A DNA stretch of 64,000 nucleotides, taken from the NCBI GenBank assembly GCA_017991675.1, contig JAGOQB010000001.1:427165-491164 (forward strand), in the 5' to 3' direction. Position numbers and translations under genes: made by a program. Below are positions 45,415 through 54,371 of the stretch, piece by piece; position 1 is the first letter of the stretch; each line of letters begins with the position of its first letter. The notes beneath the pieces are model-generated. The model was not told the origin of the DNA. It saw only the letters and a list, made by a program, of their open reading frames with translations, and ran no database searches. Source of the DNA: Phenylobacterium sp. (GTDB lineage Bacteria; Pseudomonadota; Alphaproteobacteria; Caulobacterales; Caulobacteraceae).

Positions 45415-46767
45415 ATGTTCGACAAAATTCTCATCGCCAATCGCGGCGAGATCGCCCTGCGGGTCCACCGGGCTTGCAAGGAAATGGGCATCTCGACCGT
45501 GGCGGTCCATTCCGAGGCCGACACCGGCGCCATGTGGGTGCGGCTGGCCGACGAAAGCGTCTGCATCGGCCCGGCTCCGGCCGCCAAGAGCTACCTGAAC
45601 ATCCCCTCGATCATCGCCGCGGCGGAGATCACGGGCGCCCAGGCGATCCACCCGGGCTACGGCTTCCTGTCGGAGAACGCGCGCTTCGCCGAGATCGTGG
45701 CCGCGCACGGCTTCACCTTCATCGGTCCGACCGCCGACCACATCAAGATGATGGGCGACAAGATCACCGCCAAGCAGGCGGTGAAGGAAGCCGGCATCCC
45801 GGTGGTGCCCGGCTCCGACGGCGCCGTGACCACCGAGGAAGAAGCCTTCGAGGCGGCCAAGAAGATCGGCTTCCCCGTGCTCATCAAGGCCGCCGCCGGC
45901 GGCGGCGGGCGCGGCATGAAGGTCGCACAGACCGAGGAAGACCTCTACGAGGCGGTCTCCACCGCGCGCGCCGAGGCCAAAGCCGCCTTCGGCGACGATG
46001 CGGTCTATATGGAGCGCTACCTCCAGACCCCGCGCCACATCGAGATCCAGGTCATCGCCGACAAGTTCGGCAATGTCTGCCATCTCGGCGAACGCGACTG
46101 CTCGCTGCAGCGCCGCCACCAGAAGGTGCTGGAAGAAGCCCCTTCGCCGGTCATCGACGCCGCCGGACGCGCCAAGATCGGCAAGGTCGTGGTCGATGCG
46201 ATCAAGGCCATCGGCTATCTCGGCGTCGGCACCATCGAGTTCCTGTACGAGAACGGCGAGTTCTTCTTCATCGAGATGAACACCCGCCTGCAGGTCGAGC
46301 ACCCGGTCACCGAGGCCATCACCGGCATCGACCTGGTGCGCGAGCAGATCCGTATCGCCGCAGGCCTGCCGCTGTCGTTCAAGCAGGAAGACGTCGTGTT
46401 CGAAGGCCACGCCATCGAATGCCGGATCAACGCCGAGAACCCGAAGACCTTCACGCCTTCGCCCGGCCTGGTCAGCGACTTCCACGCCCCCGGCGGCCTG
46501 GGCGTGCGCCTCGATAGCGCGCTCTACGCCGGCTATTCGATCCCGCCCTACTACGACAGCCTGGTCGGCAAGCTGATCGTCCACGGCCGCGACCGCGAGG
46601 AGTGCATCGCCCGCGTCAACCGTTGCCTGGGCGAGATGGTTGTCGGCGGCATCGAGACCTCGATCCCGCTGTTCCAGGAACTGCTGCAACAGCCCGACTT
46701 CCTCACCGGCGACTACAACATCCACTGGCTGGAACGCTGGATGAAGTCGCAGCAGGAAGAAGTCTAA
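45415..46767 (+). CDS. accC: Biotin carboxylase subunit of acetyl-CoA carboxylase
   Basis: ATP-dependent biotin carboxylase of 450 residues. It begins [20 protein letters not shown], the ATP-grasp glycine loop is [11 protein letters not shown], and further signatures are [15 protein letters not shown] and [16 protein letters not shown]. Length and motifs are canonical. It is cotranscribed with accB. A repeat element follows 12 bases after the stop. Confidence 0.98.
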
Positions 46768-46981: not shown

Positions 46982-47629
46982 ATGAAACGTTTCGGCCCCC
47001 GCGAGCTCCTTGAGTGCTACGGTCGCGGCGTGTTCCCGATGGCCGACGCGCGTGAAGACGACCGCGTCTTCCTGATCGATCCTGAGAAACGCGGCGTCAT
47101 CCCGCTGGACGCCTTCCACGTCTCGCGCCGCCTGGCCCGCACCGTGCGCAGCGATCCCTTCGACATCCGCATCGACACCGCCTTCTCGCGGGTGGTGCTG
47201 GAATGCGCTGCGCCCAAGCCCGGCCGCACCGAGACCTGGATCAACGGGGTCATCGAGGACCTCTATGCCCAGCTGTTCGAGATGGGCCACGCCCACAGCG
47301 TCGAATGCTGGGACGGCGAGGAACTGGTCGGCGGCCTCTACGGCGTCTCGCTCGGCGCGGCCTTCTTCGGCGAGAGCATGTTCAGCCGCCGCACCGACGC
47401 CTCCAAGGTGGCGCTGGTCCACCTGGTCGCGCGCCTGCTCGCCGACGGCTACCGGCTGCTCGATGCGCAGTTCATCACCGATCACCTGTCGACCTTCGGC
47501 GCGGTGGAGATTCCGCGGGCCGAGTACCACCGCCGCCTGGCCCGCGCGCTGCAAGCGCAGGCTTCGCTTCAGCGCGCCGCGGTCGGGACCGGCGCGGCCG
47601 CCCTGCAGGTGATCAGCCAGGCGTCGTAG
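46982..47629 (+). CDS. aat: Leucyl/phenylalanyl-tRNA--protein transferase
   Basis: Adds Leu or Phe to N-terminal Lys/Arg of proteins, marking them for ClpS/ClpAP (N-degron pathway); 215 residues. Landmarks are [34 protein letters not shown] (split across the family signature), and [21 protein letters not shown]. The last 61 bases overlap the 3' end of the DUF2155 gene on the other strand. Confidence 0.94.
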
Positions 47630-48243
47630 ATCGGGTGCTCCAGCGGGTTCAGGCCCGGCGAGGAGGCATACATCCACCCCCGGAAGGCCTGGCGCGGCGG
47701 CGGGGTCGGCTTGCCCGGCGCCGCGCGCGGCTGGGATTCCACGGTCACGTGCGCGATCGAGTCCTCAAGCGCCTCATCGGCCGCCGATCGCTCGCACGCC
47801 TTCACCGTGAAGACGAGGTTCTTGTAGCGCACCGGCCGCCCCACGGCCGCTTCGAAGCGCATGGATTCGGCCGAGACCTTGTCCAGCGCCTGGATGACGG
47901 CGACGTCGTAGCGGGTCCGCTTGGCCGCCTCGGTCGGTTTGGCCGCGACCTGGGCCTTCGGCGGCGGGGCCGCCTCGACCTCCTCGGCGGCGATCGGCGG
48001 GGCGGCGACCGGCGGCGGCGGCGCCACCTGGGCCGGCGGAGCTTCTTCCCGCGCCGGCGGCGGCTGCGCGGCGGGCGGCGCGAGCGCGCCATTGGGCGGC
48101 GGCGCCGGCTGGGCCGGCGGCGGTTGCAGCAGCGGCGGCTGGCCGGGCTGTTGGCTCGGAGGTGTCGGTTGCGCGCTCACCATGCCGGCGCCCGCCAGGG
48201 CGCCCAGCATCGCCAGTCCGGCCAGGGTGCGGCGGCGCGACAT
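47569..48243 (-). CDS. DUF2155 domain exported protein
   Basis: Exported protein of about 224 residues: signal peptide ([18 protein letters not shown]), a long Pro/Ala/Gln-rich spacer (about 25-105), and the DUF2155 domain (about 110-210) with [34 protein letters not shown] and YDAWLITC. Function is unknown; alphaproteobacterial homologues are often next to aat and NDUFA12 as here. It begins two bases after the NDUFA12 stop. The last 15 or so residues beyond the domain are encoded antisense to aat. Confidence 0.88.
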
Positions 48244-48245
48244 GC

Positions 48246-48641
48246 CTATTCGGGCCGCCAGGCCTCGTAGTCGCCCGACGCCTTCTGACGCTCGCCGCCA
48301 CGCGCGATCGAGCCCTGCGGCTTCCAGGCGTGCACGGTGCCGGTCAGGTTCGGCAGGTGGTCCTTTTCCCAGGGCTGGCGCTTCAGCGGCGCCTTGGTCG
48401 GCGGCTCGTCGAAGGTGTAGTGCAGCCAACCGTGCCAGTCGGCCGGGACCTTCGAGGCCTCGGCATAGCCGTTGTAGATGACCCAGCGGCGCTTGCGGCC
48501 CTTGTCGTACGACTTCCGGTCGTCCTTGGCTTCGTAGTAGCTGTTGCCCAGCTCGTCCTTGCCGACGAACACGCTGCCGCGAACGGTGTTGCGGATGCCG
48601 ATGGTCGCGCCGTTCCACCAGGTGAAGATATTCTTGAGCAC
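48246..48641 (-). CDS. NADH:ubiquinone oxidoreductase 17.2 kDa subunit (NDUFA12 family)
   Basis: Supernumerary complex I subunit of 131 residues, found in alphaproteobacteria and mitochondria. Landmarks are FTWWNGATIGIRNTVRG, VGKDELGNSYYE, RRWVIYNG, VPADWHGWLHYT and HLPNLTGT. The GTG at 48641 was chosen because the protein begins LKNIFTWW as in homologues; upstream residues in that frame are not family-like. It is the first gene of the NDUFA12-DUF2155 pair and is divergent from the NrdJ-like gene. Confidence 0.92.
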   Translation of the reverse strand: MLKNIFTWWNGATIGIRNTVRGSVFVGKDELGNSYYEAKDDRKSYDKGRKRRWVIYNGYAEASKVPADWHGWLHYTFDEPPTKAPLKRQPWEKDHLPNLTGTVHAWKPQGSIARGGERQKASGDYEAWRPE

Positions 48642-48809
48642 GTTTGGGAATTCCAGACAGACAGGAAGCGGGCGGACTATAGGCGCCCGGCCGCCCACCG
48701 TCCAGCGGCGCGAAATCCGCAATATGTTGGGGATGGAAGCATCGTGAACCGCAACATCTATTGCCCGCGTTAACGACGCTGCTAGACTCGCCCGACGGGA
48801 GAGCCGGAT

Positions 48810-51293
48810 ATGGGTGCAGAAGCGGCAAGGATCGAACGGCGGACGCTCGAGCGCGCGTCCAGCGTGGCCGAGATTCTGGCCCCCGCGTCATGGACCGACG
48901 CGCGGGTCGAGGCCTGGCTCGACTGGCTGGGCGAGGACACCGACCTGCCCGCCGCCGTGTTCCGCTTCGCCGAAGACCTCGTTCAGCGCGGCGATTCGGC
49001 GGCGCTGTTCGAGACCGCCCGCGCGCGCGCCGCGTTCCGCCGCGACCTGGGCGCGGCCGTGCTCGCCGGCCAGATCGCGCTGAGCTGGCCCCGTCCCGAC
49101 GCCGCGACGCCGCTCGTGCGGACAGGCCAGGCCGACTGCGCCGCCGCCCTCGCCGCGCTGCGCGCCCAGCATCGCGGCCGCGCGATGGCCAAGGCCGCCG
49201 CCCGCGAGATGGGCGCCCGCCTTCAGGCGGTGATGGACTCCATCCTGCGCTGCGAGGGCGACCCGGCCGCCTGCGCCGACCTGCGCGCCAACGCCAGCCT
49301 GGCCCGCAGCGCCGAGGCCGCCCGCACTGCGGGCGCTACCGACGCCATGATCCTCGACGCCATCGCCCTGGCCAAGGCCGGCGAACTCGAATGGACCAGC
49401 GCCGAACCCGACTTCGGCGACATCGAGGATCTGGAACTGGTCTGCGTCGTCGCGCCCGAGCCGGCGCTCGGCGCCGCGGCCTGGGAGACCGGCGCGCTCG
49501 CCGTCGCCCTCACCCCCGAGATCGCCCAGGGCGTCGCCCGCGCCTGGGGCGGCGCGCGCGGGGCCGTCAATCTGCTGAGCTTCGGGGCCGGGCAGGACTT
49601 CGACGCCGCCGGCTTCGCCTCGGCCGTCGCCCTGCTGGCGACCGCCCTGGCCGCGGTGGCCGGCGAGCGCCCCGCTTCGCTCGGCCTGGCCGGTGTCGCC
49701 GACTGGCTGGTCGCCCAGGGCCTGACCTACGATTCCGAGGCCGGCCGGACCGCCATCCGCGACCTCTACCGGCACGCGGCGTCCGCGTGCGTCGCTTCCG
49801 GCGCCAAGCTGAGCGGCGGCCTGGCGGTGTTCGACGATGCGGAACTGGCCCTGCGCCTTGGCGGCGCCAGCGCCTCGGCCGCCCCCTGGCTCGGTCCGAT
49901 CACTGTCGCCGAGACCGAGGACGGCGTCCTAACCCGGGTGATGTCCGAAGCGGCGCTGCAAGGCCTGACCGCGATCGGGGCCGATCAGTCCCAGGCGCGC
50001 GCCTGGCTGCTGGGCGGCGCGGACCTCTCCGAGGCGCCCGGCGTCGACCATGCGGCCCTGGCCGCCCGCGGCTTCACCGACCACGAGATCGCCCAGGCCG
50101 AAGCCGCCCTGCCCTTCGCCGCCACCCTGGCCGAGGCCTTCGCCGCCATCGACGCCGGCTTCCTCTGCGACGTGCTCGGCGCCACCGACGCCGACCTCGC
50201 CGACCCGAACCTCAACGTGCTCAAGCTGGCCGGCTTCAGCGACGAGGAGATCGATCAGGCCCAGGCCTACGCCATGGGCTCGGGGGCGCTATCTGCGGCC
50301 GACTTCCTCACCCCCGCCCAGCAGGCGGTGTTCGAGACCGCCGACGACCTCGGCCCGGAGCCCTATTTCGCGGTGCTGGCGGTGATCGCCCACGCCCTGG
50401 CGGTTCCCGCCCTCGCCGACCTCGAGCTGGAATGGGACACCACCCCGGCCGACGCCGCCGGCGTGATCGCCATGGCCGCCCGCGCCAAGGCCCCGGCCCT
50501 GCGGATGCGTCGCGCCGCCCCGCCCGCCGGCCTGGTGCTGGACCTGCCCAAGGCGATCGAGCCGCCGCCCCGCGCCGCGCGCGAACCCGAGGCCGAGGCC
50601 CGCGCCCCGCAGGCCGAACGGATCGTCGAGCGCATCGTCGAGCGCGAGCGCACCCGCCGCAAACTGCCCGACCGCCGCAAGGGCTACATCCAGAAGGCCA
50701 GCGTCGGCGGCCACAAGGTCTATCTGCACACCGGCGAATACGAGGACGGCGAACTCGGCGAGATCTTCATCGACATGCACAAGGAAGGCGCCGCCTTCCG
50801 CTCGTTGATGAACAACTTCGCCATCGCGATCTCCATCGGCCTGCAGTACGGCGTGCCGCTGGACGAGTTCGTCGAAGCCTTCGTCTTCACCCGTTTCGAG
50901 CCGGCCGGCCCGGTCACCGGCAACGACTCTGTGCGCTCGGCGACCTCGATCCTCGACTATTTGTTCCGCGAGCTCGGCGTCTCCTATCTGGGCCGCAACG
51001 ACCTGGCCAACGCCGACCCGGACGAGCTCAACGCCGACGGCCTGGGCGACGGCAAGAGCGAGGACGAGGACGGCCCCCAGCCGGCCAGCCACTTCATCTC
51101 GCGCGGCTTCGCCCGCGGCGCGGCGCCCGACAACCTGGTGTTCCTGCCCAGCGCCGCGGCCCGGCCGCCGGCGGCCGAGGCCGATGTCTGCGCGGCCTGT
51201 GGCGACATCGCCGTCGTCCGCAAGGGCGCCAGCCTGATCTGCGAAACCTGCGGGACCCGCGCCGCCCCGCAGGGCGGCGACATGACCGGCTGA
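48810..51293 (+). CDS. NrdJ-derived TSCPD-domain protein (apparent class II ribonucleotide reductase pseudoenzyme)
   Basis: An 827-residue protein. Residues about 610-740 are a clear TSCPD domain as at the C-terminus of alphaproteobacterial Nrd[93 protein letters not shown]. It ends with C794-x2-C797 and C811-x2-C814, like the NrdJ Cys tail. Upstream, [35 protein letters not shown] and [12 protein letters not shown] echo the NrdJ barrel region (from my memory of the family). The NrdJ active-site NPCSE and the SGAISKTINMPN segment are absent, and NrdJ is about 1,200 residues, so reductase activity is unlikely. Residues 1-150 are Ala-rich and unrecognised. The start follows GACGGGAGAG. Confidence 0.85.
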
Positions 51294-51471
51294 CCGGTCG
51301 CCGGCGCCACGCGACGCGGCCGCCATTTCGGGGACCGGGCTCAATGACGCCCGCGGAATGTCTCAAGCCCAGCTGGCCCAGCCCTGCGCATCCGCAGCGG
51401 CCAGCTAAGCCGCTGACAATTACGGCGAATTAAGTAGCGTCCACAGAGTGTCGAGAGCACATGCTCACATC

Positions 51472-52383
51472 ATGGACCAACAACGCCAAGCTTCGATGCC
51501 CCGTCTGACGCGTCCCCTCCCCGTCCTCGCAGCCCTGCTCGCCGCGGCGCTCGCCGCCGTCCCCAGCATGGCCAGCGCCAATATGGGCGACAAGGACGTG
51601 GCGCGGATGGTCACGTTCGGCGGCGCCTGCGCCAAGTGTGAGCTGTCGGGGCGCAAGCTGGCCGGCGCGCAGTTCGTCGGCGCCGACTTCGCCCAGGCCG
51701 CCCTGGTCGGCTCGGACCTGCGCGACGCCCGCTTCCTCGGCGCCAACTTCAATGGGGCCGACCTGTCGCGCGCCGACCTGTCCGATTCCCAGATGGTCGG
51801 CGCCAACTTCACCGCCGCGGTGCTCACCGACGCACGCCTACGCGACGTCGAGGCGCGCGGGGTCAATTTCGGCGGCGCCAACCTCGCCCGCGCCGACCTG
51901 CGCGACGCCGCGGCCGCCGGCTCGAACTTCAGCAAGGCCAACCTCTCCAACGCCTCGTTGCGCAGCGCCGAACTGCGGGCGACCAACTTTTCCAAGGCCA
52001 ACGCCCGCGCCGCCGACTTCCGCGACGCCGCGCTGACCGGCGCCAATCTCGGCTCGGGCGCCTTCGACCACGCCTCGTTCCGCGACGCCGATCTCTCGGC
52101 CGCCAGCCTGACGGGCGCGACGTTCGTCAACACTGACTTCCGTGGCGCGACCCTGAACGGCGCCAACATCGCCGGGGTCGACCTCTCGCGCACCAAGGGC
52201 CTGGAGCAGGACCAGCTGGACAACGCCTGCGCCGACGGCGCGACCCGCACCCCGCCCGGCCTGGTGGCCAAGACCTGCCATCGCGGCTCGCGCGTTCGGG
52301 TCGTCGCCCGCCCCGCGCCGCCGGCCCCGCCCGCGCCTCCGGCGCCGCCGGCCCCGCCGCGCTTCTTCGCCGCCGTCGACTGA
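51472..52383 (+). CDS. Exported pentapeptide-repeat protein
   Basis: About 303 residues with a signal peptide (VLAALLAAALAAVPSMASA), a short CAKCELSG segment, then about 30 A(D/N)LxX-type pentapeptides (for example FLGANFNGADLSRADLSDSQ), expected to form a right-handed quadrilateral beta-helix. A C-terminal CADGAT...KTCHRG pair of cysteines and a Pro/Ala tail follow. Being exported, it is not a gyrase-protecting Qnr protein; function is unknown. The start could be ATG 51472 or ATG 51496, and neither has a strong ribosome site. Confidence 0.85.
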   Translation: MDQQRQASMPRLTRPLPVLAALLAAALAAVPSMASANMGDKDVARMVTFGGACAKCELSGRKLAGAQFVGADFAQAALVGSDLRDARFLGANFNGADLSRADLSDSQMVGANFTAAVLTDARLRDVEARGVNFGGANLARADLRDAAAAGSNFSKANLSNASLRSAELRATNFSKANARAADFRDAALTGANLGSGAFDHASFRDADLSAASLTGATFVNTDFRGATLNGANIAGVDLSRTKGLEQDQLDNACADGATRTPPGLVAKTCHRGSRVRVVARPAPPAPPAPPAPPAPPRFFAAVD

Positions 52384-52442: not shown

Positions 52443-52544
52443 GAGTCATTTCCGATCTGATTGGATCGGAAATGACTCATAACTCGTTGAATTTAGAGCA
52501 TTTTCTTCGCCGAACCGGTAGCCACTTCGGCGGAAAATGCTCTA
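52443..52544 (-). repeat. Tandem double-hairpin intergenic repeat, copy 2 (inverted)
   Basis: Read on the minus strand it matches 41772-41873: first hairpin TAGAGCATTTTC...GAAAATGCTCTA with the same inner stem, then GAGTCATTTCCGATC/GATCGGAAATGACTC. The second stem differs from copy 1 at two adjacent base pairs with both strands changed, so pairing is kept. Its leading TAG is the aspS stop codon. Confidence 0.88.
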
Positions 52545-54371
52545 GACCTTGATCGGCGGCGCCAGGCGGATGTGCAGCTCCTTCAGCTGCTTCTCCAGAA
52601 CTTCCGACGGCGCGTTCATCAACAGGTCCTGGCCCTGCTGGTTCAGCGGGAAGGCGATGACCTCGCGGATCGCGGTCTCGCCGGCCAGCAGCATGACGAT
52701 CCGGTCGATGCCGGGCGCCAGGCCGCCGTGCGGCGGCGCGCCGTGACGGAAGGCGTTCAGCATGCCGCCGAACTCCTCCTCGACGACGTTGGAGCCGTAG
52801 CCGGCCAATTCGAAGGCCTTCACCATCACCTCGGGGATGTGGTTCCGGATCGCGCCCGAGCACAGCTCATAGCCGTTGCAGACGATGTCGTACTGGAACG
52901 CGCGGATGGTCAGCGGATCCTGGTTCAGCAGCGCGTCGAGACCGCCCTGCGGCATCGAGAACGGGTTGTGCGAGAAGTCGACCTTCTGCTCTTCCTCGCT
53001 CCACTCGAACATCGGGAAATCGACGATCCAGCAGAACTTGAACTGGTCCTCGTCGACCAGCTTCAGGTCCGTGCCGACCTTGGTCCGGGCGGTGCCCGCG
53101 AACTTCGCGAACACCTTCGGATCGCCGGCCACGAAGAAGGCCGCGTCGCCCTGCCCCATGCCAATGGCGGTCATCAGCGCGGTGGTCGCGTCGGGCCCCA
53201 GGTTCTTGGCGATCGGGCCGCCCCAGCCGCCCTGGTCCTCGGACCAGAAGATATAGCCCAGGCCCGGCTGGCCTTCGCCCTGCGCCCAGCTGTTCATGCG
53301 GTCGCAGAACGCGCGGCTGCCGCCCTTCGGGGCCGGGATCGCCCAGACGGCGTTCTTGGCGTCTTCCAGGATGCGCGCGAACAGGCCAAAGCCGCCGCCG
53401 CGGAAGTTCTCAGAGACGTCCTGCATGACGATCGGGTTGCGCAGGTCGGGCTTGTCGGTGCCGTAGCGGGCCATCGACTGCACGTAGGTCAGGCGCTCGA
53501 AGCCCTTGTGCTCGATGGTCTTGCCGAAGTCGTCCACATAGGACAGCGGCTGGTCGATCGGCGAGACGCGCTTGCCGCCGCCGAACTCCTCGAACACGCC
53601 GTGCATCACCGGCTCGATCGCCGCGAACACGTCTTCCTGGGTGACGAAGCTCATCTCGACGTCGAGCTGGTAGAATTCCAGCGACCGGTCGGCGCGCAGG
53701 TCCTCGTCGCGGAAGCACGGCGCGATCTGGAAGTAGCGGTCGAAGCCCGAGACCATCAGCAGCTGCTTGAACTGCTGGGGCGCCTGCGGCAGCGCGTAGA
53801 ACTTGGTCGGGTGCATCCGCGAGGGCACCAGGAAGTCGCGCGCGCCTTCCGGCGACGAGGCCGTCAGGATCGGCGTCTGGTACTCCAGGAAGCCCTGGTC
53901 GATCATGCGGTTGCGGATCGAGTGGATGACCTTCGAGCGCAGCACGATGTTCCGGTGCAGCGTCTCGCGGCGCAGGTCCAGATAGCGGTGCTTCAGGCGG
54001 ATCTCTTCCGGATAGTCGGGCTCGCCAAAGACCGGCAGCGGCAGCTCGGCGGCTTCCGACAGCACCTCAACGGTACGCACGCGCACCTCGACCTCGCCGG
54101 TCGGCAGGTTGGCGTTCACGGTCTCCGGGCTGCGGGCCACGACCTCGCCGTCGATGCGGATGACGCTCTCGGCGCGCAGGCGCTCGATGACGTCGAAGCC
54201 GGGGGTCTCCGGGCTGATGACCAGCTGGGTCAGACCATAGTGGTCGCGCAGGTCGATGAAGACCAGACCGCCGTGGTCGCGCTTGCGGTGAATCCAGCCC
54301 GAAAGGCGGACGGTCTTGCCCGTGTCGGCGGCGCGCAGGGCGCCTGCGGTATGGGTGCGGTAGGCGTGCAT
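52542..54371 (-). CDS. aspS: Aspartyl-tRNA synthetase
   Basis: Class II aminoacyl-tRNA synthetase of 609 residues of the bacterial type. N-terminal OB-fold ([24 protein letters not shown]), catalytic core motif 2 ([24 protein letters not shown], split over the usual region), an inserted GAD domain (about 290-430) and motif 3 ([15 protein letters not shown]). Without a gatCAB survey it cannot be said whether it also charges tRNA-Asn. The final GTC-TAG uses the first three bases of the repeat element as stop. Confidence 0.97.

Follow-up and report, generated by a model that had tools for sequence, protein, structure and literature searches.

A conserved NrdJ descendant of Caulobacterales, annotated as a B12-dependent ribonucleotide reductase, is predicted to be a pseudoenzyme

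Introduction

What does a ribonucleotide reductase (RNR) gene do once its product has lost the residues for ribonucleotide reduction? The question is raised by a gene in a 64,000-nucleotide stretch of Phenylobacterium sp. (GenBank assembly GCA_017991675.1, contig JAGOQB010000001.1, positions 427,165 to 491,164; hereafter the window), which encodes an 827-residue relative of the class II RNR NrdJ, a protein of about 1,240 residues when intact in alphaproteobacteria. A first-pass annotation, made from the sequence of the window, had described a shortened RNR without an active site that kept its C-terminal TSCPD domain and cysteine tail and was retained for a new, perhaps regulatory or nucleotide-sensing, role. 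The length difference is as described, and the window gene almost certainly encodes an RNR pseudoenzyme, that is, a homologue of the enzyme which has lost the catalytic residues and is kept by selection. Sequence data could hardly make a firmer case for an RNR pseudoenzyme that is conserved and carries the annotation of an enzyme. Our preferred reading of its role, to which we give a probability of about 0.45, is that Caulobacterales nrdJ lost catalysis in place and now encodes an accessory protein tuning the supply of deoxynucleoside triphosphates (dNTPs) or its users. Published work is cited below by PubMed Central (PMC) number.

Results

The protein derives from NrdJ over most of its length

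The gene and the regions of its product are as follows.

48810..51293, plus strand: NrdJ-derived pseudoenzyme, 827 residues, ATG start (domain, profile and motif evidence)
48930..49094, plus strand: weak N-terminal NrdJ remnant, residues 41–95, NrdJ columns 117–171 (second match of the profile of residues 1–370, probability 48)
49113..49829, plus strand: barrel remnant and helical insert 1, residues 102–340, NrdJ columns 298–613 without columns 388–429, 489–507 and 543–557 (profile alignment)
49920..50537, plus strand: helical insert 2 and barrel end, residues 371–576, up to NrdJ column 939 (phmmer, profile alignment)
50658..51014, plus strand: near-invariant TSCPD domain, residues 617–735 (Pfam match, identities, separate model)
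51189..51251, plus strand: four-cysteine tail C-x2-C-x13-C-x2-C, residues 794–814, without the redox cysteine pair (sequence; ligand and redox assignment from PMC5704485)

Residues 630–722 match the Pfam TSCPD family PF12637 (E 7.2e-10; 39.5 bits, above the cut-off of 22.8), within the stretch of about 610–740 where the first-pass annotation had placed this domain. The match to the RNR barrel family PF02867 is sub-threshold (14.8 bits, cut-off 23.9), and the NCBIfam B12-dependent RNR model PRK07562 scores 366 bits (E 3.7e-109), far under its equivalog cut-off of 1737. Searching PDB chains with phmmer matched Rhodobacter sphaeroides NrdJ (7b9q_A, E 9.8e-13), with the best stretch at residues 380–518; the C-terminal part as query gave no significant match in the PDB sequence search. 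A profile–profile comparison of 80 aligned pseudoenzymes, less the rows with too many gaps, with 28 intact NrdJ, from which TSCPD was left out, aligned residues 102–576 with NrdJ columns 298–939 along a single collinear path (probability 100, E 1.3e-46), the best E-value in a control with a reversed profile being 0.25. The weaker barrel-region blocks noticed at first are therefore recognisable as NrdJ, and since RNR similarity extends outside TSCPD along one path, the protein is NrdJ throughout; it is not explained by TSCPD lying next to an unrelated sequence by chance.

Structure prediction, which the first-pass annotation had proposed, points the same way for the fold and not for its integrity. 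An AlphaFold2 model built from a pseudoenzyme-only alignment is highly confident over approximately residues 5–580, whereas TSCPD and the linker score low (mean predicted local distance difference test score, pLDDT, 82.2; predicted template-modelling score 0.71). Foldseek returned RNRs for 50 of 50 among the matches listed for the full-length model, the best in the PDB being R. sphaeroides NrdJ (7b9p, E 7.2e-16), at a template-modelling (TM) score of 0.47 and a root-mean-square deviation of 9.1, so that the barrel appears eroded yet recognisable. Because confidence in TSCPD was low, residues 594–827 were modelled separately, giving block means of pLDDT of 87–95 over residues 624–733, with three strands followed by helices. 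Foldseek found nothing significant in the PDB for this TSCPD model (best E 0.2, with IscU chains among the insignificant matches), and the likeness to IscU therefore comes from Burnim et al. (PMC9669993), where a folded domain of class II RNR C-termini is called IscU-like and is said to have no reported role. We infer that this domain is TSCPD.

The catalytic residues have been deleted

NrdJ consensus columns 172–297, 388–429, 489–507, 543–557 and 617–693 have no counterpart in the pseudoenzyme. The first of these segments contains the first reducing cysteine (in HACFIQ), columns 489–507 the radical cysteine and its partner cysteine 11 residues on (SNPCSEYMFLDDTACNLAS), and columns 617–693 the APTGT stretch; outside the tail, we take the roles of these residues to be those of their equivalents in other RNRs. 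The thiyl-radical cysteine of the N-x-C-x-E finger loop is thus gone, as are both active-site reducing cysteines, the C-terminal redox pair and, through the deleted segments, a complete ten-stranded barrel. The absence of the NPCSE motif had been correctly reported. The SGAISKTINMPN segment, also said to be missing, has indeed lost its original sequence but was replaced rather than excised, its end aligning with residues 535–540, LADLEL.

The tail is kept in part. Working alphaproteobacterial NrdJ end in C-x2-C...GTC-x2-C-x2-C...GCS, with six cysteines, of which the window protein retains the four of zinc type and lacks the two redox cysteines. In Stackebrandtia nassauensis NrdJd, according to PMC5704485, tail cysteines 920, 923, 936 and 939 are modelled as zinc ligands and 933 and 945 as the redox pair; among the four, only the change of Cys939 left zinc content undiminished, and all six were required with tris(2-carboxyethyl)phosphine. 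A census of 203 distinct best frames from loci L001–L240 divides along these lines: 88 have NPCSE and a six-cysteine tail, 103 lack NPCSE and have a four-cysteine tail, and 7 lack both NPCSE and tail, among them the frame of Asticcacaulis (L155) and one, L148, that is cut at a contig end. The exceptions are two frames with NPCSE and four cysteines (L051 and L053, truncated at the locus end; the longer loci of the same genomes are L085 and L069), one with NPCSE and no tail (L213, which stops at a contig end) and two with six cysteines and no NPCSE (L131 and L183, short frames of 689 and 739 residues, the latter at a contig end). No cysteine outside the tail is invariant among the 80 pseudoenzymes, the best, at positions 148 and 155, occurring in 67 of 80; none reaches 90%, which rules out an alternative radical cysteine in the eroded barrel. 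Neither outcome named at the outset as overturning the first-pass reading, an intact barrel with another radical cysteine or RNR similarity confined to TSCPD, was observed.

Selection has held TSCPD to the sequence of working NrdJ

Ratios of nonsynonymous to synonymous substitution rates (dN/dS; NG86, six pairs within Phenylobacterium) were 0.13–0.37 for the whole gene and 0.04–0.18 for TSCPD, the highest value in any single region being 0.59. Over TSCPD (residues 617–735), mean identity is 0.83 among working NrdJ, 0.89 among the pseudoenzymes of family f1, 0.80 between these and working NrdJ, 0.80 between other pseudoenzymes and working NrdJ, and 0.84 between f1 and other pseudoenzymes. Over residues 10–120, 121–195, 196–376, 377–515 and 516–590, identity among working NrdJ is 0.77, 0.51, 0.67, 0.57 and 0.67, whereas f1 pseudoenzymes share 0.18, 0.26, 0.21, 0.30 and 0.17 with these proteins. 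Residues 736–790 are poorly conserved in both comparisons alike (0.25 and 0.27). Within residues 610–780, 80 of 171 positions have one residue shared by at least 90% of the working and at least 90% of the pseudoenzyme sequences. Positions that reach 80% conservation in each set never differ between the two; position 709 is lysine in working NrdJ and mixed in pseudoenzymes. With nearly equal identities and no position fixed differently, TSCPD seems to serve one and the same purpose in dead and working proteins alike. Together, the deletions, spread, dN/dS and TSCPD identities support the earlier view of an RNR pseudoenzyme conserved under purifying selection, and a selected, non-catalytic function is likely.

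The gene is conserved across Caulobacterales

A match was found in 57 of 60 relatives, counting the window's own genome: in all 36 Phenylobacterium genomes, some of them split over contigs or frames, and in 21 of 24 genomes from the rest of the order, eight of which carry NrdJ of intact length (six of family f5, and G038 and G046 of f4). Within Caulobacteraceae 114 of 119 genomes match. The survey of Caulobacterales suggested at the outset revealed conservation, with the TSCPD part matched in 141 of 150 genomes of the order; frames of f5 are 1196–1394 residues long and most others are below 1100, the NPCSE state of genomes without fetched loci being inferred from frame length. At least 276 of 389 genomes of the class match, and most frames among the matches listed are about 1200–1300 residues long. 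Long frames of the pseudoenzyme occur in four families, and their presence in many genomes rules out a recent pseudogene or assembly error for the family as a whole; stops in the Brevundimonas (g13) matches are the natural protein end in those that were re-read. In L228 (G070) and L084 (G011), both from single assemblies, the gene lies in two overlapping frames, through a split gene or an error. Near-complete genomes without a TSCPD match include G050, G054, G058, G609, G617 and G625 (g10) and G061, G100 and G112 (g13).

The model organism Caulobacter crescentus is very probably among the carriers. Its CCNA_01966 is annotated as a B12-dependent RNR (PMC5869019) and listed as NrdJ in the nucleotide-reduction step of published maps (PMC6538847). 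It stands two locus numbers before CCNA_01968, which is perA, encoding a secreted pentapeptide-repeat protein (PMC12864828, PMC7690452), and because a perA-like gene adjoins the pseudoenzyme in nearly all loci of the family (not in L232), CCNA_01966 very probably corresponds to the window gene, although it was published as an enzyme. A gene counted as the B12-dependent RNR of this model organism is then very probably not an RNR, which changes the interpretation of B12 use and dNTP synthesis in C. crescentus. In a search of open PMC papers, an inactive NrdJ in Caulobacterales was not named among the matches listed.

A probable single loss in the ancestral nrdJ position

The gene stands between the following neighbours.

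45415..46767, plus strand: biotin carboxylase, accC (synteny, neighbour families)
46982..47629, plus strand: leucyl/phenylalanyl-tRNA protein transferase, aat (synteny, neighbour families)
47569..48198, minus strand: DUF2155 protein (synteny, neighbour families)
48246..48722, minus strand: NDUFA12 protein (domain from frame residue 52; true start probably downstream of 48722)
51448..52383, plus strand: pentapeptide-repeat protein, perA/yjbI-like (name from synteny and papers)
52542..54371, minus strand: class II (D, K, N) tRNA synthetase (synteny, neighbour families), which we take from its similarity to be aspS

This slot, accC-aat-DUF2155-NDUFA12 upstream and perA-aspS downstream, recurs as far as the fetched stretches reach at pseudoenzymes of families f1–f4 and of Maricaulis. 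Working nrdJ may have the upstream part of the slot as well, for instance in Pelagibacteraceae, Parvibaculaceae, Methylobacterium and Pelagibacterium; in many other cases (Bradyrhizobium, Paracoccus and others) the working gene is without it. Among working Caulobacterales nrdJ, L085 has the slot, L069 has NDUFA12 and perA, L068, L075 and L083 have perA only, and L076 has none of these genes. The first-pass annotation had read complex I (NDUFA12), DUF2155 and aat as a hint to function. As the same genes flank working nrdJ elsewhere in alphaproteobacteria, the slot is the ancestral nrdJ position and a function deduced from the neighbours is ruled out.

In a tree of 69 rows and 417 columns, drawn from the middle region and TSCPD, the 37 pseudoenzyme rows form one clade (support 100/100), next to which stand intact NrdJ from two groups of Caulobacterales. 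The pseudoenzymes and the intact NrdJ of f5 and f4 split together from the outgroup at 100/99, and a single change of state is enough to explain the tree. The branches of L231 and L071 are long, which leaves some chance of long-branch attraction; the shared deletions agree with the single clade. Slot and nesting within the NrdJ tree thus place the gene in the nrdJ orthologue group by descent, and on this sequence evidence it is an nrdJ orthologue that decayed in place, through one loss inside Caulobacterales.

Predicted NrdR sites and other RNRs

NrdR loaded with dATP and ATP is a repressor of RNR genes, and its binding sites are two boxes spaced by about three helix turns (PMC9110341). Two similar sites lie ahead of the window gene.

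48717..48732, unstranded: NrdR-box-like site 1, CCGCAATATGTTGGGG (two-box matrix from nrdA promoters only)
48749..48764, unstranded: NrdR-box-like site 2, CCGCAACATCTATTGC, 32 bp after site 1 (same matrix)

The matrix was built from 13 Caulobacteraceae nrdA promoters (of which the pairs of L292 and L293 look doubtful) and applied with strands merged to pairs within 150 bp of the frame start, 18 loci being omitted (11 without upstream sequence, 7 duplicates). In Caulobacteraceae the pair outscored all others of its locus at 73 of 84 loci (median 23.8), compared with 3–18 of 84 for 20 column-permuted matrices; with strands scored apart it ranked first in only 16 of 90, the near-palindromic pair outranking itself on the opposite strand. 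Three of the 11 misses (L028, L088, L223) are frames of 1024–1164 residues whose true start probably lies further downstream. A strict pattern devised once the sites were known was present in 62 of 85 loci, with 70 occurrences over 1.56 Mb of both strands, and in the 62 pattern-bearing loci the box columns are conserved (means 0.82 and 0.88) relative to the spacer (0.48), the pattern itself fixing part of the columns. By the published spacing rule a box pair is therefore found in Caulobacteraceae and, with this matrix, not in other families, where divergent boxes may be missed by a matrix trained on Caulobacteraceae nrdA. The pseudoenzyme gene seems to be under predicted NrdR control in Caulobacteraceae only.

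A co-occurrence survey, also proposed earlier, established that the pseudoenzyme lineage carries class I NrdAB as well. An NrdR gene is present in 59 of 60 genomes, including the window's own, NrdA-type frames (by length) in 59 of 60, with the NLC-x-E motif seen in 22 loci, and NrdB matches, of which that of G043 is weak, in 57 of 60. In the window's own genome, which is 70.7% complete, neither an NrdA-type frame nor an NrdB match was seen; in six Caulobacter (g31) genomes NrdA is the sole RNR barrel match. A second, different, full-length class II-type RNR occurs in 14 of 60 genomes (L032–L045), scattered in the order, and G004 has a fragment only. These second frames are 582–889 residues long, and the two that were translated have NPCGE and a cysteine-rich tail of their own.

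Discussion

We propose that catalysis was lost once, in place, from the nrdJ of a Caulobacterales lineage that also held class I NrdAB. The residual barrel would have become a compact, faster-evolving scaffold, with TSCPD held to the sequence of working NrdJ. In Caulobacteraceae the protein would be made when dNTPs are low and NrdR lets go, and its TSCPD, together with the zinc ribbon in most species, may oligomerise or bind a partner and so tune the supply of dNTPs or its users. NrdR binding, stable production of the protein, the part played by TSCPD and the dNTP target are all conjectural here. The box-like pairs fit a dNTP-linked role in Caulobacteraceae, and the dATP- or dGTP-induced oligomers that S. 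nassauensis NrdJd forms through its C-terminal domain (PMC5704485) suggest by analogy how the pseudoenzyme might act. A link to dNTP or RNR control as such is a tentative assignment, close to but short of even odds.

Several observations weigh against this proposal. In other Caulobacterales families the box pair ranks first at just 2 of 14 pseudoenzyme loci (median 1.25), which weakens a reading in terms of dNTP or RNR control, and among working nrdJ loci it does so at 19 of 64 (median 5.0); NrdR control may be a leftover from nrdJ. Shifted spacings of 26/27 and 36/37 also rank first in 48 and 57 of 84 loci (medians 6.0 and 8.8), because single good boxes score alone. Six pseudoenzymes (L155, L229, L230, L232, L234, L240) end without the zinc ribbon, which is therefore dispensable, and the gene has no match in 3 of 21 Brevundimonas genomes, in G075, in G132 or in the six g10 genomes, so it is not universally needed.

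The alternative that fares best is a function outside dNTPs, for example binding of RNA, DNA or protein through TSCPD and the zinc ribbon, with NrdR control merely inherited. The scarcity of box pairs in other families would suit it, as would the lack of a significant fold match for the TSCPD model, and stand-alone TSCPD proteins of about 280 residues in family f76, in genomes with their own NrdA-type enzyme, indicate a module that needs no RNR parts. The conservation of box columns over the spacer speaks against it, since regulation seems to be maintained in Caulobacteraceae, and we regard such a function as a substantial, though not favoured, possibility. A vestige, that is, a redundant gene in slow decay without a function of its own, is improbable. 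Catalysis is indeed redundant, given an NrdA-type frame in every genome but the incomplete one of the window, residues 10–590 have fallen to 0.17–0.30 identity with working NrdJ, and some lineages have lost the gene; but no region of the six pairs exceeds a dN/dS of 0.59, TSCPD identity is unchanged, a constraint that already disfavours decay, long frames persist in four families, and a confident, compact model is predicted for approximately residues 5–580. That the protein is still an RNR, through an alternative radical cysteine or as an NrdJb-like C-terminal subunit of another NrdJ, is barely credible even with RNRs first in the fold search and second class II-type matches in 14 of 60 genomes (and a fragment in G004), because no cysteine outside the tail is invariant, the redox pair that an NrdJb-like role requires (PMC5704485) is gone, a six-cysteine tail combined with a catalytic partner lacking the domain was not found, 46 of 60 genomes show no full-length second match, and two of the 14 were translated and have tails of their own, which together rule out an in-trans tail for another NrdJ.

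Among known systems the closest is R. sphaeroides NrdJ (7B9P/7B9Q), with which the pseudoenzyme is collinear and shares two helical inserts, TSCPD, a zinc-type tail and the top fold match. Alphaproteobacterial NrdJ also occupies the orthologous slot, but has the radical cysteine, reducing cysteines, APTGT and redox pair that are all gone here. NrdJb of the split class II RNR of Pseudomonas aeruginosa (PMC4520616) is a C-terminal module of the same kind, and the cysteine-rich C-terminal domain of S. nassauensis NrdJd (PMC5704485) a similar one; the pseudoenzyme differs from both in lacking an equivalent of the Cys933/Cys945 pair and in having a long degenerate barrel still attached. If TSCPD, putatively the IscU-like domain, is kept unchanged without catalysis, the protein offers a natural separation of function in a tractable organism. 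Herpesviruses encode catalytically dead homologues of the RNR large subunit that act in the control of cell death; these are likewise RNR pseudoenzymes, but of class I, viral and of unrelated origin.

Decayed nrdJ genes elsewhere in Alphaproteobacteria

Weak matches were examined in 27 genomes of the class, and 23 of 23 that were re-searched (G323 included) contain another RNR large subunit. Family f76 has TSCPD-only frames of 278–284 residues (three fetched: L279 in G325, L280 in G500 and L281 in G244; 1.2-Mb genomes), without a zinc tail and in the nrdJ slot between NDUFA12 and aspS. TSCPD is also kept, and NPCSE absent, in f11 (301 residues, four-cysteine tail, same slot), f22 (530–1060 residues, four fetched, at least part of the slot), f77 (667 residues, same slot) and f119 (918 residues, slot not seen). 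These cases raise the doubtful but broader idea that the TSCPD module has an ancient function independent of reduction, and that alphaproteobacteria repeatedly deleted the catalytic parts, mostly in the same slot, once another RNR sufficed; the module would survive as the pseudoenzyme in most Caulobacterales, as a bare 280-residue protein in f76, and also in f11, f22, f77 and f119. If this is true, the module would fill a gap in dNTP control, as either a dNTP-responsive oligomeriser or a regulator of class I RNR or replication. Against this, the decayed NrdJ of f80, f90 and f95 lost TSCPD or keep a trace of it while retaining barrel parts, which rules out universal retention of TSCPD.

In the loci of these last three families (L301–L306 and L282; f80, f95 and f90), N-terminal or late-barrel parts are kept and NPCSE is gone, five of the seven being seen in the same slot. 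A further case is L283 2194-5070 (G241, family f73), a 959-residue, nearly complete NrdJ without TSCPD in which NSFAE replaces NPCSE, the radical cysteine becoming phenylalanine; its family mate G323 has an intact NrdJ, and the G241 protein is either a fresh-looking RNR pseudoenzyme or the result of a sequencing error.

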